Below, in pieces: positions 29,827 to 51,457 of a DNA stretch of 64,000 bases (positions within the stretch are counted from its first letter, which is position 1; every line of letters begins with the position of its first letter). Source of the stretch: a virus; IMG/VR virus record IMGVR_UViG_3300032523_001141, positions 1-64,000 of that record. One strand, written 5' to 3'. Made by a program: the position numbers and the translations under genes. The notes beneath the pieces were generated by a model. The model did no database searches and was not told where the DNA came from. It saw nothing but the letters and a program-made list of their open reading frames with translations.

Positions 29827-30101
29827 TTAATTATCGCAAATATAGGGTAAACTATAAAAAGTATTTACCGGCATTAATTTTAACATTTCAGCGGCCGAAG
29901 TTGACGACATAAAATAGTTATTTCTTGAATGTGTCGGCGCTATGCGCATAGCTTGCGCTGGGCGTGCATGGGGGTATGCTGCGTGCGTCTCGTCAACGGT
30001 GATAGAGTCGCCATCCTCGCTGACGACGCACGGCCGCACCTCGTCGAGCGTGTAGCCACGTTCTTTGCAGCGAGCCAACAAGTGGTCTAGGCGGCACACA
30101 A

Positions 30102-30105
<4 letters not shown>
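29827..30105 (-). CDS. small protein (CRLDHLLARC family)
   Basis: Start at ATG 30105, overlapping the upstream TGA (ATGA). 92 residues; MIVCRLDHLLARCKERGYTLDEVRPCVVSEDGDSITVDETHAAYP is a motif I have met at the ends or as companions of phage tail and head proteins. C-terminal half (RIAPTHSRNNYFMSSTSAAEM) is different. Sits between two adhesin genes. Confidence 0.6.
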
Positions 30106-31226
<1,121 letters not shown>

Positions 31227-31275
31227 AACAACATATACGCTAGTTTAAAATTTAAATTTTACGGCGCCGTCAAAA

Positions 31276-33054
31276 TTAAATTGGTATTGGATTGCAATAC
31301 GTTCCAGGCGGGCAGCCCGGCGGGCATGGGTCCGCGCCGCAGTTTGCCGGAGGATCCGGATCGCTACTGGAGGACCCACCACCACCGCCGCCGCCTGTAG
31401 AGCACGCTGACGTGTTGAGCGTGATCGTAGCCGATAGTTGCGGCGAGCACGGGTCATCGTTATTAACGATAATGTGACCAGACCCGAAACTTCCCAGACT
31501 AATCGCGCCGCCGGCAACACGCGGATTTGTGGGCCAAATAATTTCTGCGTGTATTTCTTGATTTCCGTCGACGTCTTTGTCTGACACGATAAGTGTACAC
31601 TCCGGGTCGGCATCGCAAACAGTTCTTGTAATTGTGGTTTTGCCCGCAATTAATTTGCCGCCGGGCGGGGGCACTGTTACAAACAAGTAAATTTCAAATT
31701 CGCACGGGTTACGCCCGTTCGGCACAGCCGACACTGGCAATATTCGAATATCGTTTATCGCAAAATTGTTACCGACAGAGTAGACCGTGTTAGCGTATCT
31801 AAATATGGGGCACGGTATTTTTGGAATCGGTATAACTAAATCGAGTTTAATATCAAATTGGCACGTGTCAGGTGTGTCGAAATCGCCTGGCGTAATAACC
31901 GGCGTTGTGTACAGTCGTGATTGATACGGACGTGGCTCGTCTTCGTATACAACGGCTACGCTAACTGGTTGCTCTGGGAATGTCGGGCATACTGGCCGCG
32001 GTATAGGTAGATTTAGGTCTAACGTAAAATCAAACTGGCACGTGTCCGGCGTATTGCATCCATTGCCCGGAATTTCTGTCGTAGTTACGGTTAGTTTGTT
32101 TTGCCCAGTAATGAAATTTGCGTAACCAATGTTTACATTTACCGGTTGTTGATAATTAATCACCGGGCAACGAGGCGCCGGAATTGGGATGTTTAAATCA
32201 AGGTCAAAATCAAACTGGCATGTGTCAGGCGTATTGCATCCGTCGCCCGGCACGTCTGTCGTAGTTACGGTTAGTTTATTTTGGCCAGTAACGCAATTTG
32301 CATAACCAGTTTTTACAGTTACGGTTTGCTCTGTGTTGATCACCGGGCAACGAGGCGCTGGAATCGGGATGTTTAAATCGAGGTCAAAATCAAACTGGCA
32401 CGTGTCCGGCGTATTGCACCCATCGCCCAGGACTTCTACTGTAGTTACAGTCAACTTGTTTTGACCGGTAACGCAATTTGCATAACCAGTTTTTACAGTT
32501 ACGGTTTGCTCGTTGTTAATTATTGGGCAACGAGGCGCCGGAATTGGGATGTTTAAATCAAGGTCTATGTCAAAAGAACACGTGTCGTCATTTTCGCAAT
32601 CGCCCGCGGTTGCCGTGACCTCAAGTTTGTTTTTAGTAGTAAAGCAGCTTGATTTGTTGAATGCTGTCGTTACTGTTACTTTTGCCGGGTTGAACACAGG
32701 GCATGGTGGCGCTGGAATAGGAATATCCAGATCAAGCCCAATTAAAAATTCGCACCCAATTGTTTGCGTAACAACAATTCCTCCGCGAGCGCTTTCAGAG
32801 CTATTGCTACTGTCGCACCGCGTTTGTTGGCGCACAGAAACAGTTACGTTGCCGGGACTAATGTCTGGGCAAAACTCATCCGCCGGCGGTACAAATGGCG
32901 GGCAGGTTGGGAGGTCGCAGTCGTAGATCGGCGGGGGAGGCGGTGGGATCGTGCAGTCTGCAATAAATGTAAAATCAACTTTGCACGGAGAATTGATAAT
33001 GCAGCTATTATCAAACAGCGCGACCGGGCACGACGATGATGAGGAGCTGGGCAT
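31276..33054 (-). CDS. repeat-containing tail fibre protein
   Basis: 592 residues from ATG 33054 (MPSSSSSSCPV). Residues 100-430 hold five to six tandem copies of a unit of about 60 residues: CQFDFDLDLNIPIPAPRCP, an EQTVTV strand, YANCVTGQNKLTVTT, then a Cys-Asn-Thr-Pro link to the next copy. The DNA period is 180 bp. Each unit has two to three Cys and is predicted as a small beta fold, giving a stalk-like array. A Gly/Ser-rich linker (GGGGGGGSSSSDP) and a CPPGCPPGTYC tail close the protein. It is 5 nt from the stop of the preceding gene and belongs to the adhesin block. Confidence 0.65.
   Translation of the reverse strand: MPSSSSSSCPVALFDNSCIINSPCKVDFTFIADCTIPPPPPPIYDCDLPTCPPFVPPADEFCPDISPGNVTVSVRQQTRCDSSNSSESARGGIVVTQTIGCEFLIGLDLDIPIPAPPCPVFNPAKVTVTTAFNKSSCFTTKNKLEVTATAGDCENDDTCSFDIDLDLNIPIPAPRCPIINNEQTVTVKTGYANCVTGQNKLTVTTVEVLGDGCNTPDTCQFDFDLDLNIPIPAPRCPVINTEQTVTVKTGYANCVTGQNKLTVTTTDVPGDGCNTPDTCQFDFDLDLNIPIPAPRCPVINYQQPVNVNIGYANFITGQNKLTVTTTEIPGNGCNTPDTCQFDFTLDLNLPIPRPVCPTFPEQPVSVAVVYEDEPRPYQSRLYTTPVITPGDFDTPDTCQFDIKLDLVIPIPKIPCPIFRYANTVYSVGNNFAINDIRILPVSAVPNGRNPCEFEIYLFVTVPPPGGKLIAGKTTITRTVCDADPECTLIVSDKDVDGNQEIHAEIIWPTNPRVAGGAISLGSFGSGHIIVNNDDPCSPQLSATITLNTSACSTGGGGGGGSSSSDPDPPANCGADPCPPGCPPGTYCNPIPI
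31850..32720 (-). repeat. 180-bp direct tandem repeats inside the fibre gene
   Basis: CAAACTGGCA and its flanks recur at 32031, 32211 and 32391, exactly 180 bp apart, with diverged copies at both ends. The central three copies are very similar over nearly the whole unit. Confidence 0.85.
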
Positions 33055-33059
33055 GACGA

Positions 33060-34001
33060 TTAGCAATTCTTCGAAATGACATTGTCTGATACGGTTATGT
33101 TTAGTGTGCTTAGTTCAGGGTCTGTCACTATTTGAATACCAGTACCGGGGATCAGGTTTACGTTAGGCCCCGGTAGCCCGTTAATCGATGTAATAACCTC
33201 ATTGCAGGCCGGGCCGCCGCTTAAAAACTGACTGCGCGGGTCGCCGTTGTCGTCAACAGGCGGCAGCTCGTCGGCAAAAAATTTAAGCTCGCCATTATTT
33301 GCGCATAACTCGGCGGCGGCAGTGCCTGTCGTGTCAGCTCCAAGTAGCGGCGCTATTGTAATTGTGCGCAAATTGTCGTTTTGCATAATCTCACAGTTAA
33401 GTCCGGGAATAAATTTTATGTTGTCTTTTAGGCATTCTTGGTAACTAATGACTTCGCGGGGAGTAGAAGAAGAGCTGGAACTAGTCGCGCACGGCGGTAT
33501 TACCTCGCGCGCGTAATTACCAATATTTATTGACCGTAAATATCCGTTAACCAACGACTGCACTCGGCGCGGTTCGACAACGCGCTCTGTATTGAATACA
33601 AGTGTAGTTCCGTTAATTATTTCAGCGTTGCGAATGTCGCCTGAAACTACGAAACCCTCCCACGCTGGTTCCGTAGCGCAGAACGTGGTGTCGAGTACCG
33701 GGTCGCTATCTACGTGCTCTGTTGTCCACTCTTCTGCGGTATTTGCGCGTGTGAACGTAAGCGGCTTGTCGGAGGCGCCGGGCGCGTTAGTCCGAAACTC
33801 AAATCGATAAACGTCAGCTATTTTTGTAACGCTGTGCAGGTATACAAAGTGCAAAGCGGTGTCAAACCCGCTGTCTATGCCCATGATAAAACCACAGTCC
33901 ACGATAAGCCCTGTAGGCAATACCGCAGCGGCGTACGTCTTTTTATGGACGAACGGAAATTGGCGGTATTCGTTATCGTTATAGAATCCGTCGCGCGGCA
34001 T
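33060..34001 (-). CDS. tail appendage paralogue 1 (YPF/ING type)
   Basis: 313 residues. N-terminus MPRDGFYNDNEYRQFPFVHK carries the FPF form of the motif shared by the next four proteins. A Ser tract lies near residue 175 and the C-terminal part has EVITSINGLPGPNVNLIPGTG, the ING element. The overall plan, an N-terminal baseplate anchor and a variable beta-rich tail, fits a receptor-binding or neck/whisker protein. It shares one base with the stop of the following gene (TAATG). Function not known from sequence. Confidence 0.6.
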   Translation of the reverse strand: MPRDGFYNDNEYRQFPFVHKKTYAAAVLPTGLIVDCGFIMGIDSGFDTALHFVYLHSVTKIADVYRFEFRTNAPGASDKPLTFTRANTAEEWTTEHVDSDPVLDTTFCATEPAWEGFVVSGDIRNAEIINGTTLVFNTERVVEPRRVQSLVNGYLRSINIGNYAREVIPPCATSSSSSSTPREVISYQECLKDNIKFIPGLNCEIMQNDNLRTITIAPLLGADTTGTAAAELCANNGELKFFADELPPVDDNGDPRSQFLSGGPACNEVITSINGLPGPNVNLIPGTGIQIVTDPELSTLNITVSDNVISKNC

Positions 34002-34804
34002 TAAAACACCTTAGAGCCGACAGCAGCTATCTTTAACGTGTTATTTTCAGGATAAACTCTGAGTATAGCGGCTGTCTTAGCCGTACTTATGCCCGGAGCG
34101 TTAGTTGCAACAGTTATTGTAAAATTGCCATATTTATCAGGCTCGCAGCCGTTAATGGTCTTTAAAAAGGTTTTTGGCGTAAAGTCTCCGACGGGGTTTC
34201 CGGCGTCGTCTAGGCATTGAATTCGTTTAAAAAGCGGCTCGCCTACGATATCTACCCGAACCGTATTGTCGGCCTCTGCTCTTAAAACCACGCCCTTTTC
34301 ACCCACCAGCCACGCATCCCCCGTTAAAAGCTCGCCAGACGGCCCTAGAAGGCCGCGAACGCCCGGTTCTTGCGCGGGGATGACTGCGGACGCCACCAGC
34401 TCTGTGGCGGCCTGCGTGAAGGTGTGCACGCCTAGAGGCCACCCGCTCAGCAGGTTCAGGCCTTCCGTCAGGCCGATTATTACCCCGGCGGGCCGTCCGT
34501 ATTTGTCTATTAGCGGTAAGGTCGTGAAATCGCCGCTGGCGAGCTCTAGCGGGGCATACGTCGCCAAGCAGGTGTTTTGCCGGGCGCTGTCGGTGAACCT
34601 AATTGTCACTAAGTTATTATTCATCTCTATACTGGAGATAAATACACCGACCGCGCCGTTAATTGTGTACACACTGACGTCCACAAAACAGTCTTTTGGG
34701 ATATAAAAGCCATCTCGTGACTTTAACGTGGCGCTGTCGTTAAACGGGTACCGCGAGTCGCTCTGCTCATTGCGAAACTCCGGGAATACAATTCTGGCGC
34801 TCAT
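34001..34804 (-). CDS. tail appendage paralogue 2 (YPF/ING type)
   Basis: 267 residues. N-terminus RNEQSDSRYPFNDSATLKSRDGFYI carries the YPF motif; TFLKTINGCEPDKYGNFTITV the ING..GN motif; the C-terminal part is a short beta stretch. Directly adjoins its neighbours (34804/34805), so translation is coupled. Probably an adhesin subunit. This is the smallest of the five members. Confidence 0.6.
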   Translation of the reverse strand: MSARIVFPEFRNEQSDSRYPFNDSATLKSRDGFYIPKDCFVDVSVYTINGAVGVFISSIEMNNNLVTIRFTDSARQNTCLATYAPLELASGDFTTLPLIDKYGRPAGVIIGLTEGLNLLSGWPLGVHTFTQAATELVASAVIPAQEPGVRGLLGPSGELLTGDAWLVGEKGVVLRAEADNTVRVDIVGEPLFKRIQCLDDAGNPVGDFTPKTFLKTINGCEPDKYGNFTITVATNAPGISTAKTAAILRVYPENNTLKIAAVGSKVF

Positions 34805-35689
34805 TTAAGCCCCTGCACTTGAACTGGATGTTTCGCACTGATCCACGCCCTCCCGCGGCGTCTCGTACGGGCGTTTGCCGCAAATCTCAGGCAGGTCAAT
34901 ATCGAGATACAGGCCAAAACCGCCGCAGTCAGCAAACGGAACAACCGTTAAATCTGCGGTGCCCGACAGAATATTTATGTTACCGTCGCAATCTGGGGTT
35001 ATGCCGTTTATGGATTCAATAGGGGTCTGCGGGCAGGTGCCGCTTTCCGGGCGCTGTGAGCATGGCCCTAAAAAGAATTTAAGGGGGTTGTAACCTATAA
35101 GGCCGACAGTGGCGTCTAAACCAAAAACTAGCGCTTGTGTTGTTTTGCCGTTTACTTGAATTTCGCGCAATTCTGTTACGAGTGGGGCGGCAGTCACAAT
35201 GTTTACTAATCCGGCAAGACTAGTGCCTACCCCGTATTTTCCGATAGACGTTACAGGAAGCGCCGAATAAGCGCGGGCGTTATTTTCAAGCAATAATGTC
35301 TGACGCGGCGAAGAATAGCGCGCGGTAAAATTCTCACTCACTCCGTCTCCAAATACGCACCAACCAGCAACGCCCGGTACTAGTGCTTGTACAGCGTAAT
35401 TTTTATTAAGCTGCAACGGCTTGGGCGCGCTAATTGCGGCGATAGGTGTGCTCGTTGTTGCGTTTTCATCGTCAGCGGCGCCAATCACGACCGTGACGAT
35501 TCCAGCAGAGACCGTAACGGCCTGCACAAAAGCTACTGGTCCGTATGTTTTTGGATAACGAATGTTGCAATCAACAAGGATGCTGTCGCGTATGCTGTTT
35601 CCGGCGTCGTCAATGCCCGTACTTCGATCGTTAAGCGGATAGCGCCGCCCGGCCTGCAAGTCATACCAGTTTTGATTACGGACAGGCAT
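34805..35689 (-). CDS. tail appendage paralogue 3 (YPF/ING type)
   Basis: 294 residues. N-terminus NWYDLQAGRRYPLNDRSTGIDDAGN, a middle beta part, then IESINGITPDCDGNINILSG (ING..GN motif). The C-terminus is PYETPREGVDQCETSSSSAGA, a Cys/poly-Ser ending like those of neighbours. Likely a tail fibre or adhesin. Confidence 0.6.
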   Translation of the reverse strand: MPVRNQNWYDLQAGRRYPLNDRSTGIDDAGNSIRDSILVDCNIRYPKTYGPVAFVQAVTVSAGIVTVVIGAADDENATTSTPIAAISAPKPLQLNKNYAVQALVPGVAGWCVFGDGVSENFTARYSSPRQTLLLENNARAYSALPVTSIGKYGVGTSLAGLVNIVTAAPLVTELREIQVNGKTTQALVFGLDATVGLIGYNPLKFFLGPCSQRPESGTCPQTPIESINGITPDCDGNINILSGTADLTVVPFADCGGFGLYLDIDLPEICGKRPYETPREGVDQCETSSSSAGA

Positions 35690-37318
35690 TTAAATACTGC
35701 TGCTTGAGGAAGCGGTGGTAGGGCCGCAAGTTATTGACGGTATTACCGTTGAGCCGTCGTCGCCGCAGTACAGAGATTTTACTATAATGAACTCTGCTGT
35801 GTCAGTTCCATCGCAACCGGCAATTATGTTTTCTACGGCGCCGTTCTCTTGTGTTATTTGTCCCGTTACAACTAGTTGCAAATCTGTAGGCGCAGATTGA
35901 TTAAAACGTAAACGGAACTGAACTTCAGCGGAATTGCCGATGTCTACTTTACCGATAGCGGCCTGAAATACAGGCCAAGAACCGCCAAGTGTTGCAAGGC
36001 CGCGGCGAGCATTTGATGTCGTTATAGACGTAAAGCCGCACACTGTTTCTGCCGTGTTGCCGTTACTCGTCGCAAACGACATAGACAACGTTACTGCTGG
36101 CGCGCATGCCGAGCATTTATTGCAGTACTGCACAAGCACGTCGATATACGGGCATCGTTGCGGTGTCATGCACGCGTGCAGCGGTTTTTGAAGTCGGCAT
36201 TCTTGTTGCCGTATCCAGCGATCTATGTTATCGCTGTGCTTTTCCACAACGCTGGACTCTTCACCGCGGACGATGCGACCAATAACGCGATACCTGTCGG
36301 CTTCGCTATTCATGTACAGCCCAAGGTTGACGTAGTCGTCACATGTGCAGCATGCCGGGCAGTTGCTGTTAATTTGCCACACTGGAGTGTTTGCGCCGGT
36401 CGGGCATACGCATCCAGCACGGGCTGTTGACGAAGATGCGCCATTAACAGTCAAAGCCGTACCCACGAGCGTCGTGGGACGATTAAGCCACAAGCAGTCT
36501 GAGGAGCCTAGTAAGATATTCGGCCCGGTTAAGCCATTTATTTCGTAGATGGGCGGTGTCGTTGTGTCACAGTCTGTGTATTTTCCTTTTCCGGACCCAG
36601 CGGCGGCGTTTAACGTAACTTGTCGTGTAGCGCGCACACCGCGAGTTTGTTGCTCGGAAACTGTGAGTGTCGTGTTATAGCCGTATTCAAAATCAATTTC
36701 GCCGGCTAATTTTATGGCTGCCGCGGAACCTAGTGCCGCTGTTTTGCCGTTTGACACATAAATAGCGTTCACGCGCTTTGGCATTTTGTAGATAGCGCGC
36801 TCGTCAATGGTGCCGTTGTTTGGTGTTATGTGTGTGGTGTAATTGCGCGCAACATCCTCGTCGTTGCCCAGCTCTGCCGCCACGGGCCATGTTTTGTAGG
36901 CGACGAGGCGGCAAACAGACGAGCCGGAAATCCATTCGTAGATGCGATAGTCGTAAGTGTTCGACGGAGACGCGCCGGCGTGACGAGCGCCCCAGTCCCA
37001 CGCATCAAATGAAACGTCGGCTGACGCAATAGACGAAAAGACAACGTTATTGTTTGCGTCGGTCACGACAATGTCGGCAGCGTGGGTAGGCGCGTACGCC
37101 CCGGCTGATGGCACGCACCCTAACCCATATAGCCAAGAAATTTTTAGTGGGTGACTTATTGCCTCGGCTAAATCTTCGTAGGCCAGATAAAAGTCAGCGA
37201 TAAGATAACGAATATCTTCAGACGGATTTACAAACGGATAATGCAATCCGCTCTGCGGTTGGTTAACACCAATGCCGCGACGCCCGGCCGAAGAATACTC
37301 GAATGCGGAGCACGTCAT
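35690..37318 (-). CDS. tail appendage paralogue 4 (YPF/ING type)
   Basis: 542 residues, the longest of the five. The N-terminus has QSGLHYPFVNPSEDIRYLIADF. The ING motif (YEINGLTGPNILLGSSD) lies near residue 275 and is followed by CDDYVNLGLYMNS and a Cys-rich beta-rich part with CNKCSACAPAVTLS. C-terminus is TTASSSSSI. The extra 200 residues after the ING element are specific to this copy. Surface-exposed adhesin is the most likely role. Confidence 0.6.
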   Translation of the reverse strand: MTCSAFEYSSAGRRGIGVNQPQSGLHYPFVNPSEDIRYLIADFYLAYEDLAEAISHPLKISWLYGLGCVPSAGAYAPTHAADIVVTDANNNVVFSSIASADVSFDAWDWGARHAGASPSNTYDYRIYEWISGSSVCRLVAYKTWPVAAELGNDEDVARNYTTHITPNNGTIDERAIYKMPKRVNAIYVSNGKTAALGSAAAIKLAGEIDFEYGYNTTLTVSEQQTRGVRATRQVTLNAAAGSGKGKYTDCDTTTPPIYEINGLTGPNILLGSSDCLWLNRPTTLVGTALTVNGASSSTARAGCVCPTGANTPVWQINSNCPACCTCDDYVNLGLYMNSEADRYRVIGRIVRGEESSVVEKHSDNIDRWIRQQECRLQKPLHACMTPQRCPYIDVLVQYCNKCSACAPAVTLSMSFATSNGNTAETVCGFTSITTSNARRGLATLGGSWPVFQAAIGKVDIGNSAEVQFRLRFNQSAPTDLQLVVTGQITQENGAVENIIAGCDGTDTAEFIIVKSLYCGDDGSTVIPSITCGPTTASSSSSI

Positions 37319-37321
37319 TTT

Positions 37322-38284
37322 TTACCCCGCGGGATCGGGGCATGTTTCGCAACCGGCGTCGCCCAACCGACTGCCAATCACTACCAAGCTCATTTGCGTA
37401 ACTTCAGAACTGAGCTTGGTTACAAAATTCTCGAGCGTGGCTACGCCGTCACTAAAGCGATCTATTTGCGTTTTTAGCGCGTCCAACTCTGCGCATCCAC
37501 AGCATGGCGATGCGCACGTGTCTATTAAGTTAATACCGTTATCACTTGCGTTAACAGAAATACAATCTGAACCAGCAATATTAAAATTGCCGTCATCTGA
37601 GCAAACACCATTAATGCAGCGGATGCATTCGCCGGTATTGTTTACTGAGCATTCGCACTCTGTGTTTAAATTTTCGCCAGAGATAGCGTTGAAAACTATT
37701 TTGGCTGTTGTGGTGCTTGTAGCCGGCTTGACTATGATCTGCATATTTGTGCCGGCAACAAACTCGACGTCCCCGTACAGCGTGGGGCTAATTTCATTAA
37801 GGCTCACGACACGAATACCGGACACGCCGCGAATCATTGGGCGTATAACGTCTGTCTCGAGCTCTCCGTCCGCGATTGCAAACTCGTACAAGCCCTGCGG
37901 CAATGCGGTTACGTCGTCAAGGCGCCCGATAACGACATGCCCGATAGAGTCAGCAAAATCAGCTATCCCGCCAACAGCGTACGTTGTATTTGGCGTATGC
38001 GTAACAATCGGTATATTAGCGCTTCCAGCTAAAACAGCCGTGCCGTTGTCGTTGTATGCAATGCTGATCGTGTACCCGACCGGCGACAGTAGAATGTTTT
38101 TGATGTAAAACTGATCTACTTGAACAGCTAACCCGGCGTGCACAGGAAAATACAGCGCTAAAATAAAGCCGTCCGGTACCCGAATTGTTCCGGTGACGTC
38201 CGTCTTAGTGGCGCGCTCTGTGAACGGGTACGAGCGCTGCGAGTTGTGGTTAAGCCACTGTAAATTCCAATTTCCGATAGGCAT
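37322..38284 (-). CDS. tail appendage paralogue 5 (YPF/ING type)
   Basis: 320 residues. The N-terminus has NLQWLNHNSQRSYPFTERATK. The C-terminal half has CECSVNNTGECIRCINGVCSDDGNFNIAGSDC (ING..GN motif with Cys) and a C-terminal coiled coil (LDALKTQIDRFSDGVATLENFVTKL). The coiled coil suggests trimerisation, common for receptor-binding tips. Ends 3 nt before the next gene. Confidence 0.6.
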   Translation of the reverse strand: MPIGNWNLQWLNHNSQRSYPFTERATKTDVTGTIRVPDGFILALYFPVHAGLAVQVDQFYIKNILLSPVGYTISIAYNDNGTAVLAGSANIPIVTHTPNTTYAVGGIADFADSIGHVVIGRLDDVTALPQGLYEFAIADGELETDVIRPMIRGVSGIRVVSLNEISPTLYGDVEFVAGTNMQIIVKPATSTTTAKIVFNAISGENLNTECECSVNNTGECIRCINGVCSDDGNFNIAGSDCISVNASDNGINLIDTCASPCCGCAELDALKTQIDRFSDGVATLENFVTKLSSEVTQMSLVVIGSRLGDAGCETCPDPAG

Positions 38285-40956: not shown

Positions 40957-43900
40957 TCATGCGCTGCTACTGCTACTGCCGAATCCTGGCAGGGTAATAA
41001 TATTTGGCGTATGCACGGTATGTCCGCAAAATCCGGGAGAGTCGCCGGCAGCCATAAACTGCGCACCAGTAACGGGCGCAGGATCTGCCTCTGGTGTGCC
41101 GATTAACTCAAAGCCGATATCTACCAACGCTTGAAGTGTTAAACGCGATAAAACCATGCTTCCCGGGTTCTGCAGAATGGCGCCGACCATGAGCTCGTTT
41201 TGTACGCCATAAAAACTTACAGCTAAGTTCGGATCTGTTTCACCCGGAGCGGCCGGCCGGTAACTATTTTCCCAGTGGCCGGAGGCTGTGCCGCTACCGC
41301 CGGTGTTCTCGAGCGGTGTGTAATATCGCGTAAGCGTTGTGATGCCGTTGTACGCTGTTTGTGTGTTTGTGTAGACGCTGCCGTTTAACGCAAAATTTGC
41401 TGCAGACCACAGGGAGCCAATACCCAGCGCGTGGCCGAGCTCGTGTGCAATCACTGTTTGCCAGAATGTTGCGGACTCAACAAATGCTTCGTTAATCGTC
41501 AGGTCAAAATATGTCGGAACGTATGTGTCTGGCCCGCCGGTTGAAAAATCAAGCACATCAGTAAGCGAGCACGACGCAATTGTGTCACTTGCCGGGTTGT
41601 TAAAGTATGTAATGCTATTTAACGCAATGCCAGCCCATACGGTATTTGCTGAATAGTAGTTTACGATAGTCGCGTATTTTTGAGCGTTTATCTGCAGCTT
41701 ACTGGACCAACGCGCGTTCGCAACGTTTAAATACGCCTTATACGGCTCCGCGACCGCGGCCCACGAGGTAGCATCAAATAGATTTTGCGCGGTTTGGCTG
41801 CTGTTTAACGAGCTTGACGATATACCGCTACTACTAGAGCTGCTGCTACTAATACTGCTGCTACTAGAAATGCAATCTGGATAAAAGTAAAAATCGATAA
41901 CTGTGTTGTTGTTACCGGTATCTGAGTAAATAATTGTTGAATTATCGGGCGCAAGTAACGTTACCGTTATAACAATATTATCGCAATTTAATGACTCAGG
42001 CCCTTCGCTGCTAATTCCAAATACGTACGCCACACTCGGCGGCCGCGTGCCGGGGGCGGAGAAAGGCGATAATCCTGCCGGTAATACAATATTTGCGCTG
42101 CCCGTTAATTTTGGATTAGACGGCGTGCTGTCGCTTGCCTCGCTCAGTGTCATCGTTCCGACAAGCGTGTCTTGCGCAGATATCGTAATTGGCCATGTTG
42201 AATTTGTACATGTGCCCTCCGTATTTACACTTACATTAAGCACATACGACTCCAGATCCGCTAATACCGCGCAACTGCTGGAGCTGCTGGAGCTGCTAGA
42301 GCTAGAGCTTGAGCTGTCGCTGCTGCTACTGCTGGAGCATATTTGCGCCGCGATAACTTGGTCGTTTGGTACGCATGTGTCAATGATTGGCGTGCCGCCG
42401 CGGCCAAGCGGGTCGCTGGCGCTCCAAACACGTAGCCACGCAATACCGACGTGGCAGCGATAGTTGCCTTCGGCGTCTTGCGACGCGCACCGAAGTTCTA
42501 AATCGTATTCGTTGTTGGCGTTTGGAGGAATGGTAGTCAAATTTAAGGCCATGTCAGCCGAGCGATCGCCGCCGCCGTGCTGGCCGCCGTTGTTTAAATC
42601 AGCAGTTCCAATAAATACGTTATTTACGTAAAAATCGAAAATAGCGGCGTTGCAGGAGTGGTTGCCGGGGCATGGACCTTCTGTGCCGCTGTACTTGATC
42701 GTGACTAGGTAATCCTCGTTTACTACACACGGCAACACCGGCAGGTCGATCGTGGGACAGGTAATCGGCACGCAGACTGGATCAGACTCGCAATCTGTTG
42801 TTGCGAATGCTTTAAAACAAATGTCACTGCCGACACTTGTTGCAATAATATCAACAACTGCATTGCTGCAATCAACGCAATCGCAATTAAAACGAAGCGG
42901 GTTAAACGTGTTATTATCCATGCAGCGTATTACGCTTATTTGATCGTCGGCCGTTAAAGAGCAGGCGTCAACTATAAGTTTATTTTGTAGTTGATCTGCC
43001 GCGGTAGGCCCGTCAGCGCTGTAAGCGTAATCCCAGTAACCCGCGTTTGTGTTCCCGCCTTTGTAAAAAGCTGCTTTAAACCATTCGTCGGCATTTGGAA
43101 TAAAGTAATGCGCGCCAGCCTTACGAGTAATTAACGGAATGCGATCGCCGTCGCCGTTTAATACAAAACCATTTTTAGGTTCGCCCGGCGCGTATACGGG
43201 CAATAGCGTCAGGTCGTATGCGCCGTCATCTGTATATGTGCTGTTTAGATTTGTTACGCGATTGTGTAGCCAGTTGCAAAATCGTAGCGACATTTCTAAA
43301 GACATTATGGCGGGTAGTTCTTCGTAATCGGCCGAATTACCGCTTTGGCCGCCGCCCTGATGGCCAACCGCCGCTAGCGTATACGTGTAATTTCCGTTTA
43401 CACCATTGCGCAGGATACCGGCGCATGCCCACGGATCTACACTATTCGGACACGACGCCGTGTACGCTAAATTATTCGCATCAGACGTAAAACATGTGTT
43501 TAAAAACTCTACATACTGACGCCGGGTAAGTTCAAATTTGTGCAGCTTGTATGTGTAGTTTACTTGACCGATAGTTCTTCCGACTGCGTACGGATAGGTA
43601 CTACCCATTAAGTCCGTTGCGTCTCGCGTAGCTACCGTATGCGCTGAGTTTCCGCTATCCGCAACAGTCACGAAGCAGCCGTAAGCTAGCGGATCCGTTA
43701 TAGACGCTAATCTAATTCCGCCAAAAGGGCCGTCTAGCTTAATATTTGTATCTGTCGGCGTTAGCAGCTCTGTCGCCGTGGCGTCTTTAACTGGCGGGTA
43801 CGGCATAAATGTCGCCAGTGAGCCAAAACCTTGTCGCCCCTCAGACGGGTTTAGCGACAAAGCCGGCCCGTGTCCTAGTATGCAACTTTCTGTTAATTCT

Positions 43901-46332
43901 CTAGCATTATCTGCCATGTTGTAACAGCCGTAATATGTTTTAATGCCGGTTAATCCGACATTTGTATAGCCGGCATACGAGTAACTCCAATTGCCGTCTG
44001 CCGTCAACCAGTCGTACCGGTCTGATAGCGTTATATTTTTTGAGTACGTTCGGGTCATCACGGCGTTGAACCACGTGCCGCCGTCCACGCTATAGCGAAT
44101 ATTTTCATAGCAATTTTTATTTGCGCCAAACGTCACGCGGTAACTTGCGGTATTGTTGGTGTAGCACTCTAAAAGCGCCACAGACGCAATAACAGCTCTG
44201 GGCTCGCATTCATCAACAACGCATGATAAAGCTGGTAAGCCAGACGTGTTAGATACGCTTGACGCGCTACTTAATGAGCTAGAGCTGTTTACTGCGCTAG
44301 CGCTAGAGCTTGATACAAGGCTAGAGCTAGAGCTTGATACATCGCTGGAGCTTGATACAAGGCTAGAGCTAGAGCTTGATACGTCGCTGGAGCTTGATAC
44401 AAGGCTAGAGCTAGAGCTTGATACGTCGCTGGAGCTTGATACAAGGCTAGAGCTTGATACAAGGCTAGAGCTTGATACAAGGCTAGAGCTGGAGCTTGAT
44501 ACAAGGCTAGAGTTTGATACGTCGCTGGAGCTTGATACAAGGCTAGAGCTTGATACAAGGCTAGAGGTGGAGCTTGATACAAGGCTGGAGCTTGATACAA
44601 GGCTAGAGCTAGACACCAAGCTAGAGCTGGAGCTTGATACAAGGCTGGAGCTGGATACCAGACTAGAGCTTGAAACCAAGCTGGAGCTTGAGCTTGATAC
44701 AGCGCTGGAACCGCCGCTATGCCCAACGCATGTTTCATCGCCGTTGGGCGTCTGGCAAGTGCCGTTGATTACCCGAACGGTGACACCGCGGTCGTGCACC
44801 ATAGAAACCAAAATGCTGTCACTTAAAGGTTCAACAGCCTTAAATTTTGTGGGCCATTCTGTGATGCTGTCAGGGCCTGCGATTTTGTCGCCCCGTGCGT
44901 CAAGACTGTATATGAAAAACAGCGCTGAATACGGCGGTACAAGTTGCCGCAGGTGTCGAATGTTGTACAAGCCGAGATTATTTTCACCCAACTCGGATAC
45001 GCGAATAAGCACAATTGCAGCATTATTGCGTAACACATTTTCAACAAGGAACTGCAGCGGGTTGATAGTAGCTGGCAGGTTCGCTGCGGCGGGCTCATCA
45101 GGCGCGTTTGGCCGCTTATCCAGCAAGTGCGCAAGCGTACCTTTGCGGATGTTTGTCGGGTCGCAGGGATTCGATACCGCGTCCAGCCGCGACTCAATCC
45201 CGCGGGCATGCATCTCGTCAAAGAAGCGTTTTAAATCATGCTGAAAACCGCCGAGCCTAAACGATACGTATGTGTAGCCGCTTTCGTGATTAGCGTCCAC
45301 AACCAGTGGCACGTCGATGTTTTCAAATATTAGGTCGCTGTAGTAGCAGTACGCAGTAAAACCGCGATCAAGCGCAAGCGCCTTAATCTCGTGCGGCACT
45401 TCAGCGCGATTTAACTCTACAAAACTAAAAGCGTTTGTTAAGCGGGCGCCGGCATGTACTGTGTCGCCAACGGAGACTATTGGCGTTGCGTCTGTCGCAA
45501 AACGATAAGCGTTTTTATCGGTAACAATGAGCAGGCCGCGGTTATCGCGCGTTATTAGCTCAACCACCTCAGTCGTTACCGCGAGCGGCACGTCAAGGAT
45601 CGCGGATAGCGCGTCTTCTATAACCGCCGCAGTTGCACCGCCGCCGATGAGGCCGTTTGTTATAGCGTTAACTAATTTTTTAGCGTTTTCTGAACTTGGA
45701 AGGTTAATGTTTACCGCGTACGCAAATTGATTGAACAAATATTTGTAGTCGAACTTTGCTTTGAACACCCACAGCGTAATTTCTTCGTCTACAAGCGTGT
45801 CGCCGTCGTATATGGGTTTGCGCAGTACGGTTTCAATCTCAAACGGATTTACGTTGAAAAGTATTACCGCTTTAATGCCGTCAACAATAAAATCCATGCC
45901 GGCTGTCAGCGCTACACTAGGGAACAGTAACCGGTCGTAGATCTGTCCGCCCGTCACAAGTTCGCTATTTATTGAAAACGCAAAGAAATCGCGACTGGCG
46001 GCGCTGTTAAAGTTTATAGGTACTCCCGCGCCGTAATAAATTTCTGGCTCGTCGAACGTGTAGTAGTTTGCCGCGGCTGCGTTCATTTGGCTTTTACGCA
46101 AAATGAGCGGGTACCAGTTTTCTGTGTGAAACAGCGGCATGCTGTAACGGCTAAGCGCGGCCACAGTCTCGAGTAGATTTAACTGAGTCTGGGCAACAGT
46201 GCGCGCTACTGCTTGTCCGTATGACTTTAACTGGTCTTTAGCTTCGTACGTGCGCGACCAGAAACTGCCCAAAGAGCTGAGTAGTTTGTCTGTATCGTCT
46301 AAGTCAGATGTTGGATATTTAAAATTTTGCAT
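40957..46332 (-). CDS. giant tail protein with FGE-like and leishmanolysin-like domains
   Basis: 1791 residues. Residues 1-500 are a baseplate/tail-type N-terminus (KYPTSDLDDTDKLLSSLGSFWSR, helices and beta). Residues about 545-690 are Ser/Leu/Val repeats (SSSLVSSS units). Residues about 890-1110 resemble the formylglycine-generating-enzyme (FGE-sulfatase, C-type lectin fold) domain: LTRRQYVEFLNTCFTS, MSLEMSLRFCNWLHNRVTNLN, YFIPNADEWFKAAFYKGGNTNAGYW. A poly-Ser stretch and beta-rich domains follow. Residues 1627-1720 match leishmanolysin-type metalloprotease: HELGHALGIG (H1630, H1634), a third His in SGHWENS (H1686) and NELM (M1715). Ends in SSSSSA. It lies directly after the J-like wedge gene, a usual place for a fibre. 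Receptor binding plus host-surface proteolysis is inferred. Confidence 0.75.
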   Translation of the reverse strand: MQNFKYPTSDLDDTDKLLSSLGSFWSRTYEAKDQLKSYGQAVARTVAQTQLNLLETVAALSRYSMPLFHTENWYPLILRKSQMNAAAANYYTFDEPEIYYGAGVPINFNSAASRDFFAFSINSELVTGGQIYDRLLFPSVALTAGMDFIVDGIKAVILFNVNPFEIETVLRKPIYDGDTLVDEEITLWVFKAKFDYKYLFNQFAYAVNINLPSSENAKKLVNAITNGLIGGGATAAVIEDALSAILDVPLAVTTEVVELITRDNRGLLIVTDKNAYRFATDATPIVSVGDTVHAGARLTNAFSFVELNRAEVPHEIKALALDRGFTAYCYYSDLIFENIDVPLVVDANHESGYTYVSFRLGGFQHDLKRFFDEMHARGIESRLDAVSNPCDPTNIRKGTLAHLLDKRPNAPDEPAAANLPATINPLQFLVENVLRNNAAIVLIRVSELGENNLGLYNIRHLRQLVPPYSALFFIYSLDARGDKIAGPDSITEWPTKFKAVEPLSDSILVSMVHDRGVTVRVINGTCQTPNGDETCVGHSGGSSAVSSSSSSLVSSSSLVSSSSLVSSSSSSLVSSSSLVSSSSLVSSSTSSLVSSSSLVSSSSDVSNSSLVSSSSSSLVSSSSLVSSSSLVSSSSDVSSSSSSLVSSSSDVSSSSSSLVSSSSDVSSSSSSLVSSSSASAVNSSSSLSSASSVSNTSGLPALSCVVDECEPRAVIASVALLECYTNNTASYRVTFGANKNCYENIRYSVDGGTWFNAVMTRTYSKNITLSDRYDWLTADGNWSYSYAGYTNVGLTGIKTYYGCYNMADNARELTESCILGHGPALSLNPSEGRQGFGSLATFMPYPPVKDATATELLTPTDTNIKLDGPFGGIRLASITDPLAYGCFVTVADSGNSAHTVATRDATDLMGSTYPYAVGRTIGQVNYTYKLHKFELTRRQYVEFLNTCFTSDANNLAYTASCPNSVDPWACAGILRNGVNGNYTYTLAAVGHQGGGQSGNSADYEELPAIMSLEMSLRFCNWLHNRVTNLNSTYTDDGAYDLTLLPVYAPGEPKNGFVLNGDGDRIPLITRKAGAHYFIPNADEWFKAAFYKGGNTNAGYWDYAYSADGPTAADQLQNKLIVDACSLTADDQISVIRCMDNNTFNPLRFNCDCVDCSNAVVDIIATSVGSDICFKAFATTDCESDPVCVPITCPTIDLPVLPCVVNEDYLVTIKYSGTEGPCPGNHSCNAAIFDFYVNNVFIGTADLNNGGQHGGGDRSADMALNLTTIPPNANNEYDLELRCASQDAEGNYRCHVGIAWLRVWSASDPLGRGGTPIIDTCVPNDQVIAAQICSSSSSSDSSSSSSSSSSSSSSCAVLADLESYVLNVSVNTEGTCTNSTWPITISAQDTLVGTMTLSEASDSTPSNPKLTGSANIVLPAGLSPFSAPGTRPPSVAYVFGISSEGPESLNCDNIVITVTLLAPDNSTIIYSDTGNNNTVIDFYFYPDCISSSSSISSSSSSSSGISSSSLNSSQTAQNLFDATSWAAVAEPYKAYLNVANARWSSKLQINAQKYATIVNYYSANTVWAGIALNSITYFNNPASDTIASCSLTDVLDFSTGGPDTYVPTYFDLTINEAFVESATFWQTVIAHELGHALGIGSLWSAANFALNGSVYTNTQTAYNGITTLTRYYTPLENTGGSGTASGHWENSYRPAAPGETDPNLAVSFYGVQNELMVGAILQNPGSMVLSRLTLQALVDIGFELIGTPEADPAPVTGAQFMAAGDSPGFCGHTVHTPNIITLPGFGSSSSSA
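44276..44700 (+). repeat. imperfect tandem repeats encoding SSSLV units
   Basis: Roughly 25 copies of short units such as GCTAGAGCTTGATACAAG, reading Ser/Leu/Val on the minus strand (15- to 30-bp periods). They form the linker of the giant tail protein. Confidence 0.8.
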
Positions 46333-46337: not shown

Positions 46338-47996
46338 TTAGTCGCTAAAACCCGATGTTATATCCACCGCTATTTCGATATCCTCTTCAGCAGCGTAAAA
46401 CACAGTGGTTCTGGAGCTAATCATATTTTCTGGGTCGTTCGGGATATCTATACGGGCGGGGTCGCGCAGGAATATGACCCGCCCGTCGGGACGAACTAAA
46501 CGCCCAAAAATATCAATGTCTGTAACGGATTGCTGCCCGCTTAAATACTGATGCGCGGCGCTGCTGATCACAGACGCCGACAACTGGCCTGCAAACCCTA
46601 CTTTGGCCACGGCCGCGGCGACCGCTTTTTTAATTGCGGCAAAATCCGGCAACGTGTCATTTGCGGCGCGCCTAATCTTGAACGCTATCGTTGTGAAGCA
46701 GGGAATAGCGGCCCGAACCAGCACGTCCGCAGCACGGCACCGTACGTCGCGACCAGATAGAAAATCTTGCAGCTCGCCGATAAGCGGTAAACCGGTTGTA
46801 GTCACCGCGTATACCTCGGTTTGGCCGGTGGTTACTGTGTTCGGCTGCACCATCGTGTCAATAAAATCTATTGTGAGCGTTTTGAATCGCGTGTATGCGC
46901 TTTCGCTAACCGAGGCAATATCCGGCTTGTAGTTCATGTCACGAAAGCTATAGCCGGGAACTGTGTTAACAATCTCGTAGCCGGTGCTGCTTTTGTCATT
47001 GATGCGCGCAACTCGTGTTATGGCGTAAAAGCCCGGCGCTGTTTTGTGGTTAACAAAAATACGCCAAACAGTCCCGGCCGTGTTGTCGCCAACAGTGACG
47101 GGCCGGACGTAATTGGCTGTAAGCAGGTGATCTACACGTTGAGAGGTGTCATTTGTTTGTACGTAGATATCTACGCGACCGCCGCCAGAAATAGGAAATA
47201 AGCCGCGCTGATCTCGTTTTTGCTCAGAGTCCCCGAACCCGACTACAGATACGTGCCTGATATTTTGAAATTCAGGTTGCGATTTTATTAGCGCTAAGAA
47301 CGACTTCCTGCCGCCAATTGTTTTTGCGGCTAATCCTTCTGGCAGCCTAGCGATATATTCTGCGTTCGTGGGCGGGTCTGTGCCATCAGTAAAGTCAGAC
47401 GCCGCGTAAATTGCTTTAACGTTACTGGGCGCAATGCTAGGAACAAACGCTGTACCGGTTGTAATGTTTCCCGAAATGCCGAGCGTTGTCGCGTAAACTG
47501 CAATTTTAAACGCGTAGGAGCCGTCGCCTACCGGCACCATTGATCGCGTTCCTTCTGCCGCGGTACTCTCGCCGGGCGGAACACCGATATATGTGCGCGC
47601 TGGTAAGAATGTTAAACCGTTGGCGGTGAACTGGATTAAACTACTGATCTGCGTATTTACGGCTTGGTTCACTACAACAACGGCCTCACCGACAGCTGCG
47701 GCCCCGGCCCCGCGCGATAAGTTGTAGTTGGACAGCACCTGATCTACTATCGTGTCGTCCGCCAGCGCTGGATTTTGTGTAATAGCTAGCAGGCTATTGC
47801 TTTGACGTACGCGCTCAATGTTTTCGCGCACGGCGGCGTTTAGCACGCTATTAAAGTACAGCACTAAGTCGTGAAATGCGCCGCGAGACAGCTCCACTTC
47901 TGGATGCCGCTCTTGCATAAGTTGCTTAAAAAATTCAAGCGTTTCAGTTACGCGCGCTGTGTCAAGCTCGTCAATGCTGGTTACTGTAAGTGCCAT
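46338..47996 (-). CDS. baseplate J-like / gp6-type wedge protein
   Basis: 552 residues from ATG 47996; a TTG lies 12 nt upstream. The N-terminus (TSIDELDTARVTETLEFFKQLMQERHPEVELSRGAFHDLVLYF) and the region with EYIARLPEGLAAKTIGGRKSFLALIKSQPEFQNIRHVSVVG and DVRCRAADVLVRAAIPCFTTIAF are typical of baseplate J-like proteins (gp6 family). These form the wedge ring around the hub in contractile tails. It follows the gp25-like gene and precedes the giant fibre, the usual order in myoviruses. Confidence 0.8.
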   Translation of the reverse strand: MALTVTSIDELDTARVTETLEFFKQLMQERHPEVELSRGAFHDLVLYFNSVLNAAVRENIERVRQSNSLLAITQNPALADDTIVDQVLSNYNLSRGAGAAAVGEAVVVVNQAVNTQISSLIQFTANGLTFLPARTYIGVPPGESTAAEGTRSMVPVGDGSYAFKIAVYATTLGISGNITTGTAFVPSIAPSNVKAIYAASDFTDGTDPPTNAEYIARLPEGLAAKTIGGRKSFLALIKSQPEFQNIRHVSVVGFGDSEQKRDQRGLFPISGGGRVDIYVQTNDTSQRVDHLLTANYVRPVTVGDNTAGTVWRIFVNHKTAPGFYAITRVARINDKSSTGYEIVNTVPGYSFRDMNYKPDIASVSESAYTRFKTLTIDFIDTMVQPNTVTTGQTEVYAVTTTGLPLIGELQDFLSGRDVRCRAADVLVRAAIPCFTTIAFKIRRAANDTLPDFAAIKKAVAAAVAKVGFAGQLSASVISSAAHQYLSGQQSVTDIDIFGRLVRPDGRVIFLRDPARIDIPNDPENMISSRTTVFYAAEEDIEIAVDITSGFSD

Positions 47997-48000
47997 AATG

Positions 48001-48480
48001 TTAGCCAATGCTTTGGGGTAATGTTGATATAGGCAAAATTATATCGCGGGCTGTGCCTGCACGGCTTAATATTACCACACGGATATTTGCATATCCGGGC
48101 AAAAAAGCCACCGAAGATAACAATGCCACGCCAATACGCTCGTCGTCGGGCCATGTATCGTCTTCTTCCCGGCTTAAATTCGTGCGGGCTGTGAAGGAGG
48201 CAAAGCTAAATGCCGCTTGCACGTCCACCGACGATCGCAACCGCCCGGAGCGTACGTCGGCCATAAAATCAGTGCCTCGGGCGGGCAGCGCGGGCATTGA
48301 GCCCCGCTCTGTTAAAAACTCCAGCAACCAGCGCTGGGTCAGTTTTTGCACGCCAACCGCTATTTGCCCCGCCGCTTCTGCGGAAAACAAGGCAAATCCC
48401 AACTGACTGTCGCCAGTGGGTTTTACGTCGCGCAGCGCCAGGAAATCGTATTTGCGATTTGCGTAGTCGGCAATACTCAT
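48001..48480 (-). CDS. gp25-like baseplate wedge protein
   Basis: 159 residues, GGAG before the ATG. LTQRWLLEFLTERGSMPALPARGTDF corresponds to the lysozyme-like gp25/GpW motif (L-T..GE.P..PEFG). The C-terminal beta part (NIRVVILSRAGTARDIILPI) fits the sandwich seen in this family. It links wedge to sheath in contractile baseplates. Its stop lies 4 nt before the ATG of the J-like gene. Confidence 0.7.
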   Translation of the reverse strand: MSIADYANRKYDFLALRDVKPTGDSQLGFALFSAEAAGQIAVGVQKLTQRWLLEFLTERGSMPALPARGTDFMADVRSGRLRSSVDVQAAFSFASFTARTNLSREEDDTWPDDERIGVALLSSVAFLPGYANIRVVILSRAGTARDIILPISTLPQSIG

Positions 48481-48971: not shown

Positions 48972-49778
48972 TTAAAATCCTCGCTTATCTAGCATTTCTT
49001 GAATCTTTGCTGCGCGCTGACTTACCGCGCCGGGAGTAATATTTAACTTTTGCGCAATCTCTTGCACGCTGGCGCGGCTGCGTCCATTGCGCCCAAGTGC
49101 CATGTCCATGATCAGTTTATTAGGCGGGCTTAAGTCGCCGTATACAAAATCGGCCCACGCGTCCTGCTCTTTATTCTGCCCGGGTATTTTGCTGGCAACT
49201 CCGCCGCTATCTGCGTAATCGTCTGCTGTCTCAATCACAGTCGAGCCCTCGGCGATCGGTTTGTGGAACTGCCGAATTTTCTTTATCCTCCGCACCGATA
49301 AGCCGATATCGTCTGCGATTTCGTCGTCGCTGGGGTCACGACTAAGCCGATCACGCAGCGAGTTTTCTGCCTCTGTTAACTTTTGAAAATCTAGGCCGAC
49401 TTGTTCTGGTATTCCTATAATGTTTTGTTCTTGCGCTGCTAGCCGGCGCAGACTTTGCATTTGCGATAACAAATGCGTTTTTACGTTTCCGCGAACCGGA
49501 TCAAATGTTTGCAGCGCTTTAAGCGCCATCAACCGCGCCCGGCTGCGCATTGCTGGTGACGGGTTAGCTCCGGCATAGCTAGACACAGCCGTATCCACAA
49601 TCGGTTGAATTTCAGCTAATATGTTTGTGTTTTGCTCAGGTGTTTGATTTTTAAACCAGTTAGCGTGCATGCTGCCAAAATCCACGCCAGCAGCAGGTGG
49701 CTTTTGCTCAGAGAACGGTTTGGGGATATCGCCTAGTATGGACGGCATTCCGGCGTTTTGCGGTGATTGAATATTCAT
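48972..49778 (-). CDS. sigma-70-like RNA polymerase factor
   Basis: 268 residues from ATG 49778 (MNIQSPQNAG); a longer frame overlaps the hub gene. Region 2-like part near residues 85-130: SRARLMALKALQTFDPVRG, then KTHLLSQMQSLRRLAAQEQNI, where the usual YATWWIRQA -10-recognition helix is replaced. Region 3-like: LTEAENSLRDRLSRDPSDDEIADDIGLSVRRI. Region 4-like HTH: RASVQEIAQKLNITPGAVSQRAAKIQEML at the end. So it probably directs host RNA polymerase to phage late promoters. The CGTATAAT boxes without -35 fit a factor of this kind. Placement inside the tail operon is unusual. Confidence 0.75.
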   Translation of the reverse strand: MNIQSPQNAGMPSILGDIPKPFSEQKPPAAGVDFGSMHANWFKNQTPEQNTNILAEIQPIVDTAVSSYAGANPSPAMRSRARLMALKALQTFDPVRGNVKTHLLSQMQSLRRLAAQEQNIIGIPEQVGLDFQKLTEAENSLRDRLSRDPSDDEIADDIGLSVRRIKKIRQFHKPIAEGSTVIETADDYADSGGVASKIPGQNKEQDAWADFVYGDLSPPNKLIMDMALGRNGRSRASVQEIAQKLNITPGAVSQRAAKIQEMLDKRGF

Positions 49779-49783
49779 TGTTG

Positions 49784-51457
49784 TTATTCCGGAATTGCTA
49801 ACGGGCCGTCGTGCCATGGGTCGCCGTCTGCGTATAGCGGGGGCTTTTCCACGGAGTACACTTCCGACGTACTTTCTGTTTCTGTTTTTGTGTGGGCAAT
49901 AGCAAACGATGTGCCGGCTGTGCTGCGCTCTGCGTTTATCACGTAAGACGCCGACATAACGGACGCGATTACAAACTCCTCCGGGTTTTCAGCAGCTTTT
50001 TCTCTGTTTTCGTCGCGTTTGGGTAAAACAATTTTAACGATACTGCCGGGCGCTATATCAAAACGAAGCGGACCAGATAACTCACCATAGCGCTGCTGTA
50101 GCACCTCACTCACAAACCAGTGCTGTGCAAACGCGTCTAACGTCGATATATTTGATTCGTAAGCCTCGCCCGCGGGCGCTGGTACGTCCGGCCCGGTGCC
50201 AGCTTTTGTGCCAGCAGCAGGGGCAGCCGCAGTTCGAGAGCCGACGACGGCTTGAGACGCAGAAACGGCCGCAGCGCCAAGGTTAGCAAACCACGCTGGC
50301 GGAGCTTTAAAAAGTTTTAAGCCGCGTTTAGTTTCCGGCGTTGTGCTTGTTGGGTATGTCGCAAAAGCGCGGTAATAGCCGATTGGTTTTGGCGCGGAGG
50401 CTGGCGAGTCCACACGACCACCGCCAACTTTTGAATCTAGCGGATAGCAGATAACAACTGACTCTAAAATTTGCGACATATTTGCGTTGAAGTTACCGTA
50501 ACTGTATTCAGCTGCGGTTATTTTCTTGCCGCCATCTTTCCACCGCAGGCCCGCGCAAAAAGGAATTGGCAGCGCCCAATCAACCGCCGGAGACACAGCA
50601 AACAAAAATTGCGCTGCATATTCTGTAATCAGTTTTGACCAAAAACTATTTTGCGCGTACGAGTCGCCGATTGTTTTTGTGAAATACTCAGACAGCGAAA
50701 TTGTCAGTCCTGTGTTAGAGCCAGCTGCGCTCACATAAAACTGCAGCGGTTTATAGTACGCCGCGCCAGTTCCGGGCATCCGCTCTAACGCTTTTTTCGC
50801 TGCGTTATTTAATTCTAATTCCTTACCGCTGTCGGGAACTACACCCGGTTGTTGCACTGTAGACGCAAACCCCGCAATTTTTTCAAACAGCGGCTTAATA
50901 GCTTTTTGCCATAAATCACCGCGTATGTTTGCAACACTAAAGAAACCGCTAGCAAAACCTGGGGTACCGCCAGCAGACGGCGTTTGAGCATATCGCTCCT
51001 GCACGGCCGCCTGCGCGTAATCCATCGGCGCCCCGGGGAACCAGTTGCCGTTAATAGCCGAAGAGTTGTTTAAGTCGTCGAGCCAGTGAACCAGATTGAT
51101 CACGTAGTTGGCTTGATTAATCGAGCGCTGATAGCCTATCCCGGCCAAAAACCCGTCAAATATTTTAAACGTGCCTTCTTGTACTTTTGTGGTGTCTCCT
51201 CCGCCCGTTGTTATTTTTAACCTAACCTCAACCTTCTGCCGCGGTTTTAATTTGCTTTTTAGGTCGTGAATTGAGGCGGCTTTGCCGGTTATCGGGTTGT
51301 AGCCGGTTGCAAGTATTAACGAGGCCGTCGGTATCGTATTAAGCGCGAATGACGCAGACGCCGACACGATATCCGGAATTTCCGCGACGAGGCTGCCGTC
51401 ATCTTCATAGACGGTAGCCCACACCTTAAATTTTGCGGAGACGTACTTGTCAGCCAT
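49784..51457 (-). CDS. baseplate hub protein (gp27/gpD-like)
   Basis: 557 residues. The N-terminus is beta-rich (KFKVWATVYEDDGSLVAEIPDIVSASASFALNTIPTASLIL). The region RQKVEVRLKITTGGGDTTKVQEGTFKIFDGFLAGIGYQRS resembles hub/D-type proteins, with the gp27-like tube-extension fold. C-terminal beta part PGSIVKIVLPKRDENREKA, then VIASVMSASYVI. Located after the tape measure and two tail proteins, as expected for a hub. Enzymatic residues not seen. Confidence 0.65.
   Translation of the reverse strand: MADKYVSAKFKVWATVYEDDGSLVAEIPDIVSASASFALNTIPTASLILATGYNPITGKAASIHDLKSKLKPRQKVEVRLKITTGGGDTTKVQEGTFKIFDGFLAGIGYQRSINQANYVINLVHWLDDLNNSSAINGNWFPGAPMDYAQAAVQERYAQTPSAGGTPGFASGFFSVANIRGDLWQKAIKPLFEKIAGFASTVQQPGVVPDSGKELELNNAAKKALERMPGTGAAYYKPLQFYVSAAGSNTGLTISLSEYFTKTIGDSYAQNSFWSKLITEYAAQFLFAVSPAVDWALPIPFCAGLRWKDGGKKITAAEYSYGNFNANMSQILESVVICYPLDSKVGGGRVDSPASAPKPIGYYRAFATYPTSTTPETKRGLKLFKAPPAWFANLGAAAVSASQAVVGSRTAAAPAAGTKAGTGPDVPAPAGEAYESNISTLDAFAQHWFVSEVLQQRYGELSGPLRFDIAPGSIVKIVLPKRDENREKAAENPEEFVIASVMSASYVINAERSTAGTSFAIAHTKTETESTSEVYSVEKPPLYADGDPWHDGPLAIPE

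Follow-up and report, generated by a model that had tools for sequence, protein, structure and literature searches.

Organization of the locus

The window, the 64,000-nt stretch of viral DNA analyzed here, derives from a 119,990-bp IMG/VR record. Positions 40957 to 46332 hold an uninterrupted open reading frame with an ATG start that encodes 1791 amino acids, bearing out an earlier note, made from the letters and reading frames of the window, that had proposed a single giant chain; the gene is on the minus strand. The chain, whole or in part, is also encoded in two related assemblies, and in IMGVR_UViG_3300033064_003914 it is 1765 amino acids long, with 99.4 to 99.6% nucleotide identity to the window. 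Between related lineages, dN/dS ranged from 0.06 to 0.20 across the N-terminal, FGE, and protease modules. These assemblies, the low dN/dS values, and the excess of HExxHxxG over shuffled sequences described below show that the reading frame is real and beyond chance. Promoter and terminator scans gave matches at chance level. The features of the locus are collected in Table 1.

Table 1. Features of the adhesin-protease locus, with positions in the window and the evidence for each
Feature	Position	Strand	Evidence
Upstream baseplate J/wedge gene	46338..48008	-	PF04865, E = 8.5e-6; phrog_6, E = 2e-10
Whole 1791-aa chain	40957..46332	-	Open frame with ATG; matching chain in IMGVR_UViG_3300033064_003914
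N-terminal module (residues 1-540), presumed to attach the chain to the virion	44713..46332	-	Gene order; dN/dS 0.08 versus L004
SSSLV serine-rich linker array	44302..44709	-	DNA tandem repeats; copy number strain-variable (1791 versus 1765 aa)
Small domain before the FGE region, residues 709-780	43993..44208	-	Aligns with the segment preceding the second FGE copy of L020 (alignment A3)
C-terminal half of permuted FGE, residues 786-882 (YYGCYNMADNARELTE...GIRLAS)	43687..43977	-	Alignment A3; collinear tblastn match to L016; dN/dS 0.06
N-terminal half of permuted FGE, residues 883-1112 (FELTRRQYVEFLN...RFCNWLHN...IPNADEWFKAAFYKGG)	42997..43686	-	Alignment A3; N-half HMM; rotation test
Carbohydrate-binding-like beta domain, residues 1202-1332	42337..42729	-	phmmer matches in FGE-carrying viral loci L033, L057, L093, L020
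Beta-rich domain, residues 1354-1497	41842..42273	-	dN/dS 0.82 versus L002
Serine tract with fusion junction (41860/41861)	41827..41873	-	Collinearity with L002; tract read directly
M8-like metzincin protease domain, residues 1514-1750	41083..41793	-	Profile, alignment, and fold matches
HELGHALGIG zinc and catalytic motif, residues 1630-1639	41416..41445	-	Single occurrence; HExxHxxG in listed homologues except the L104 HALGH paralogue
GHW (residue 1685), putative third zinc ligand His1686	41272..41280	-	Single occurrence; HW invariant in alignments A2, A4, A6
NELM (residue 1712), putative Met-turn Met1715	41188..41199	-	Single occurrence; Met invariant in A2, A4, A6

The gene directly upstream of the chain matched the Pfam Baseplate_J model and a PHROG baseplate wedge family. 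Residues 1 to 540 of the chain itself had no match in Pfam, NCBIfam, the PDB, or phage records, a PHROG match was weak and at chance level, and homology to any known baseplate protein was not found. The “baseplate-type N-terminus” proposed earlier therefore rests on gene order: a baseplate gene does adjoin, but the module matches no known family. Nor does a baseplate location generalize, since other contigs with the FGE domain lacked a Baseplate_J match; the sheath and Baseplate_J models each matched 1 of 26. Terminase matches, in reading frames of about 680 amino acids, confirmed about 10 of these 26 contigs as tailed phages. A search for T4-type Gp23 matched nothing anywhere, controls included, and was hence uninformative.

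Two beta domains lie between the FGE region and the protease, with dN/dS of 0.36 and 0.82 between lineages; the second, residues 1354 to 1497, is the least constrained module of the chain. The first is named carbohydrate-binding-like from its appearance.

Elsewhere on the minus strand of the window, consecutive putative tail-module genes (33060-38284) have in common a (Y/F)-P-(F/L) motif at the N terminus, with the instances RSYPFTERAT, HYPF, RRYPLNDRST, SRYPFNDSAT, and RQFPF, which is perhaps a common virion-attachment signal. Cysteine-rich proteins (6 to 8% Cys) with serine runs are encoded at 27634-33066, and a sigma-70-like factor, with regions 3 and 4, is encoded within the tail gene cluster at 48972-49817.

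A leishmanolysin-like protease

By its profile, alignment, and fold matches, the C-terminal domain resembles leishmanolysin (M8), and we call it an M8-like protease, with cleavage activity predicted. The motifs HELGHALGIG, GHW, and NELM, from which an M8-type metalloprotease had first been proposed, each occur once, at residues 1630, 1685, and 1712, and the family assignment is supported by the homologue profile, the match of a partial model to leishmanolysin (1LML), and the ligand pattern. The window domain scored E = 0.013 against Pfam M8 (14.7 bits against a gathering cutoff of 21) and E = 2e-4 against NCBIfam NF038122; the Pfam model matched 4 of 6 homologues, the best at 4.1e-8. HExxHxxG, HW, and the Met of the Met-turn are conserved in homologues of about 30% identity, which come from the marine phage AP013547 (Autographiviridae), other viral contigs, and a Pseudonocardia genome. 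The zinc ligands were thus retained, one degenerate paralogue (in L104) aside.

A profile of six homologues reached 1LML (E = 8.7e-6) in an alignment that matched the third His and the ELM Met-turn. This match depends on the actinobacterial homologue from Pseudonocardia (L010), which by itself reached 1LML at E = 0.005; the phage-only profile, built without it, missed that structure. The Pseudonocardia homologue carries no information on the phage host. An AF2 model of the domain was partial (mean pLDDT 53, with model residues 7 to 132 mostly at 70 to 90), and a Foldseek search from it returned 1LML as the top PDB match (prob 0.84, E = 0.02). Between lineages the protease has a dN/dS of 0.20. 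Single-sequence PDB searches with the protease and FGE domains of the window found nothing useful.

In AP013547 (L008:3488-6780), a segment resembling YVPN(W/F)TRL...GLxPSV is present at the N terminus of both the protease and the Ig-like repeat protein before it, and may serve as an attachment peptide.

A circularly permuted FGE domain

In the window chain, the closing blocks of a normal FGE domain (YGxYDMxGNxxEW ... GFRLAS) stand first, at residues ~786 to 882, and the opening blocks (VTVxDxGN ... FELTxxQYxEFLN ... FCNWLHN ... IPxxDEWxKAAxYKGG) stand second, at residues 883 to 1112. By this order and the rotation tests below, the domain is a circular permutation in which the C-terminal half comes ahead of the N-terminal half. 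The FGE relationship that the earlier note had claimed, together with a C-type lectin assignment, is supported by the rotated match and the homologues; that reading had missed that the halves are swapped. From FGE homology we infer a C-type lectin fold.

In native order, the window chain gave no Pfam match to FGE-sulfatase, and the separate halves likewise gave none. The rotated domain gave one PF03781 match across both halves, at E = 0.046, below the cutoff. The FGE domain of L002 (contig IMGVR_UViG_3300036981_000377, a relative ~92% identical to the window) behaved similarly, with no match natively and, once rotated, a single stretch over both halves at E = 0.0034. Because a profile search breaks the permuted domain in two, native-order scans score poorly, and the window's own copy was missed entirely by such a search.

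Residues ~790 to 1109 are collinear with L016 at 34% identity (tblastn, viral search), and an HMM of the N-half matched the same chain in L001/L003. The C-half of the window is very divergent, the C-half HMM missing it at E ≤ 1e-3, and its assignment rests on the rotation test, the collinearity with L016, and alignment A3. Between lineages, dN/dS was 0.06 for the C-half and 0.20 for the N-half. The AF2 model of the region, from an alignment of 9 sequences, had a pLDDT of 36, and Foldseek from this model was uninformative.

The permuted domain in uncultured viruses

The rotation test gave a consistent picture in phage homologues. Natively, each of the four tested showed two separate Pfam stretches, the N-half being the best (profile ~35-130); after rotation, three showed a single stretch (profile ~35-254), and the score rose in all four. 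The effect was weak for copy 1 of L016, which still gave two stretches and a slight gain in score. A canonical, secreted-type FGE control (L021) behaved conversely, with one stretch natively and two after an artificial swap. Eight of nine aligned copies matched PF03781, the best at E = 3.8e-22.

Searching IMG/VR with seven permuted copies returned 212 relatives, the best 80 of which resolved into 74 loci on contigs of up to 230 kb. In the sequences retrieved, half-domain HMMs identified at least 89 distinct copies in the C-then-N order, forming 73 clusters at 70% identity. The N-then-C order was counted seven times; four of the copies are truly canonical (L021, L023, L024, and L056), with a fifth in L104. 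The permuted domain thus occurs in more than 70 uncultured viral records besides the window's. Searches of 50,697 deposited phage genomes, with a copy from L019 and the window region as queries, found no permuted copy, and a survey of 224 jumbo-phage genomes reported no FGS domains (PMC7824862).

Two copies, at L088:8579+ and L090:9896+, show a second permutation point, running from the last part of the N-half through the C-half to the first part of the N-half. A quick tree places these two together in a single clade and the canonical L056 and L104 copies with those of L021 and L023, both with modest support; only the positions of these two copies (L088_P2 and L090_P2) and of the canonical rows were used from this tree.

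Two known functions of related domains were considered and rejected. The catalytic CxxxxC pair between RGGSW and GFR was present in 0 of 44 resolvable permuted copies, 41 of which had no Cys there at all, as is also the case for the corresponding segment of the window; and reverse transcriptase (PF00078) was found neither in the window's record nor among 20 related records, which include fragments. Neither FGE catalysis nor DGR diversification is therefore indicated. With its catalytic cysteines absent, the domain is probably a binding module, by analogy with Mtd.

Serine tracts and a probable recent fusion

The long SSSLV linker noticed earlier was confirmed as a tandem array in the DNA, with periods of 18, 42, and 60 bp. 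A second serine tract holds the junction between the adhesin and protease portions. In L002, the FGE chain stops and the protease is encoded by the next gene, with its own N terminus and serine linker. The window follows L002 as far as L002:3448 and picks it up again at 6290; the absent piece (L002:3449-6289) is exactly 2,841 bp, or 947 codons, in frame, and the ends are joined within the serine tract. The difference between the two loci is directly observed, and its direction, an in-frame loss in the window's lineage, is what we infer. Since so close a relative has the protease as a separate gene, the single-chain adhesin-protease appears, from comparison of these sequences, to be a recent fusion. 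The fused form is common to two non-identical assemblies. L002 also has ~540 bp extra relative to the window at another serine tract; with both differences falling at such tracts, the tracts look like joints where modules are swapped.

Recurrence of the pairing

In about 83 distinct FGE chains, HExxHxxG was observed 3 times against 0.0 expected from shuffles, and most of the chains had no recognized protease. The pairing, which had been called unusual for a tail fiber, is unusual but not unique, with further examples in L025, L064, L079, and L104. A single chain in L025 carries three permuted FGE copies, RCC1 repeats, and an intact M8-like protease. Permuted FGE occurred somewhere on 7 of 16 protease-bearing contigs, a rate that has no random-contig baseline.

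The other chains vary in their proteases. At L064:7553-16993, a phage chain of more than 3100 amino acids has a subtilase at its N terminus (Peptidase_S8, E = 1.6e-41), two permuted FGE copies, and beta-propeller-like repeats. The 2161-aa chain at L079:3835+ has an N-terminal M43/pappalysin-like motif, HEIGHWLGLSHSW, recognized by eye, and two permuted FGE copies. The 3063-aa chain at L104:10972-20160 has several permuted copies and one canonical copy; here HALGH replaces HELGH, so the M8-like domain is probably inactive, and the chain adjoins a gene with an intact protease.

Proposed role

We consider it fairly probable that the chain is a baseplate- or tail-attached adhesin-protease of an uncultured tailed phage, built from an N-terminal anchor, a permuted FGE binder, and an M8-like protease, with module exchange at serine tracts. 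Residues 1 to 540 would anchor the chain in the virion, as gene order suggests, and the long serine-rich spacers would hold the globular modules outward. The permuted FGE/SUMF1-type domain, its catalytic cysteines absent, would bind as a C-type-lectin-like module, as Mtd does, and the leishmanolysin-like zinc protease at the C terminus would cut a host-surface protein, both activity and substrate being predictions. Modules would be traded via recombination in serine-codon tracts, and the in-frame 2,841-bp loss relative to the sister lineage would have fused the adhesin gene with what had been a protease gene of its own. The chain would thus combine receptor binding with host-surface proteolysis, and a permuted lectin-like domain paired with a protease would be a likely way for viruses to grip and cut host proteins. 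The substrate of a phage-borne M8-like protease could reveal a host surface protein. An earlier suggestion, that the protease would suit a planctomycete host, took as its premise a proteinaceous cell wall in Planctomycetes, and this premise is contradicted by the peptidoglycan that these bacteria possess (PMC4432640).

The protease might instead act in virion maturation or self-processing, cutting the fiber or neighboring virion proteins rather than the host. Large phages commonly mature by proteolysis (PMC7824862), long unstructured serine linkers would be easy cleavage sites, and L002 has its protease on a separate neighboring gene. The position of the protease at the end of linkers, however, is typical for display modules, and the replacement of the M8-like domain by unrelated proteases (S8 and M43-like) in other FGE chains accords more readily with a variety of host substrates than with a single step of assembly; we regard a maturation role as unlikely. 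An assembly artifact, in which collapse of a serine repeat joined two genes, is improbable. The junction does fall in a low-complexity serine tract and L002 does have two genes, but the same junction appears in two assemblies that differ in SSSLV copy number and are only 99.4 to 99.6% identical, the missing piece is a whole 947 codons in frame, and the unrelated phage chain of L025 carries the same pairing. That the protease domain serves for binding, its catalysis unimportant, is a reading suggested by the HALGH paralogue of L104 and appears quite improbable given that other homologues with a complete site keep HExxH, His, and Met and that dN/dS is 0.20. Permutations usually arise by duplication and truncation of the ends, and tandem FGE arrays exist, but in single-copy chains the C-half comes first and the N-half last, the halves abut directly, and rotation restores one domain (profile 35-254) in 3 of 4 tested homologues, leaving hardly any likelihood that the region is made of fragments of two tandem canonical domains with no permutation.

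Beyond the adhesin-protease of the window, we judge it slightly better than an even chance that these domains constitute a large family of binding modules in phages that has apparently gone undescribed. Such a family would have arisen via permutation of the FGE/C-type-lectin domain, with two cut loops according to lineage, and its members would sit singly or several to a chain on low-complexity linkers, alongside exchangeable proteases (M8-like, S8, and M43-like), as a non-DGR receptor-binding toolkit of uncultured, often very large phages. A search of open-access literature, with few subscription papers and preprints, gave no description of a circularly permuted FGE domain or of a leishmanolysin-type tail protein, so the novelty is provisional. 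The permuted domain is a candidate adhesin fold reached through a new connectivity and is widespread in uncultured phages.

Comparison with known systems

Like leishmanolysin (M8; PF01457, 1LML), the phage protease has HExxHxxG, a distant third His, and then the ELM Met-turn, but the remainder of the 529-position model is absent from the phage chain, no pro-domain was recognized, and the window domain by itself falls below the Pfam cutoff. The window domain also matches positions 35 to 199 of the 274 in the NF038122 metalloprotease model (metallo_LGF), with 21.5 bits against a cutoff of 80. BAQ94410, from the uncultured phage MedDCM-OCT-S31-C1, has a homologous protease domain with conserved ligands; unlike the window chain, it is a separate 371-aa protein with a D/P linker, encoded in a 43.5-kb Autographiviridae genome in whose record no FGE domain was found.

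With FGE-sulfatase/SUMF1-like domains (PF03781), the phage domain shares the blocks EVTN.QY.EFLN, FCNWLHN, IPTENEWYKAAYY, YGTYD..GN.EW, RGG, and GFR. It differs in being circularly permuted, in having no catalytic CxxxxC pair, and in occurring in chains with low-complexity linkers. Mtd has a CLec fold of the FGE subclass and serves in phage receptor binding (PMC5006420), and the phage domain would have this FGE-type C-type lectin fold in common with Mtd and the other DGR variable proteins. In contrast to those proteins, the phage domain is permuted, has no accompanying reverse transcriptase in the window's record or the 20 relatives, and has a C-half on which purifying selection is strong when close strains are compared.
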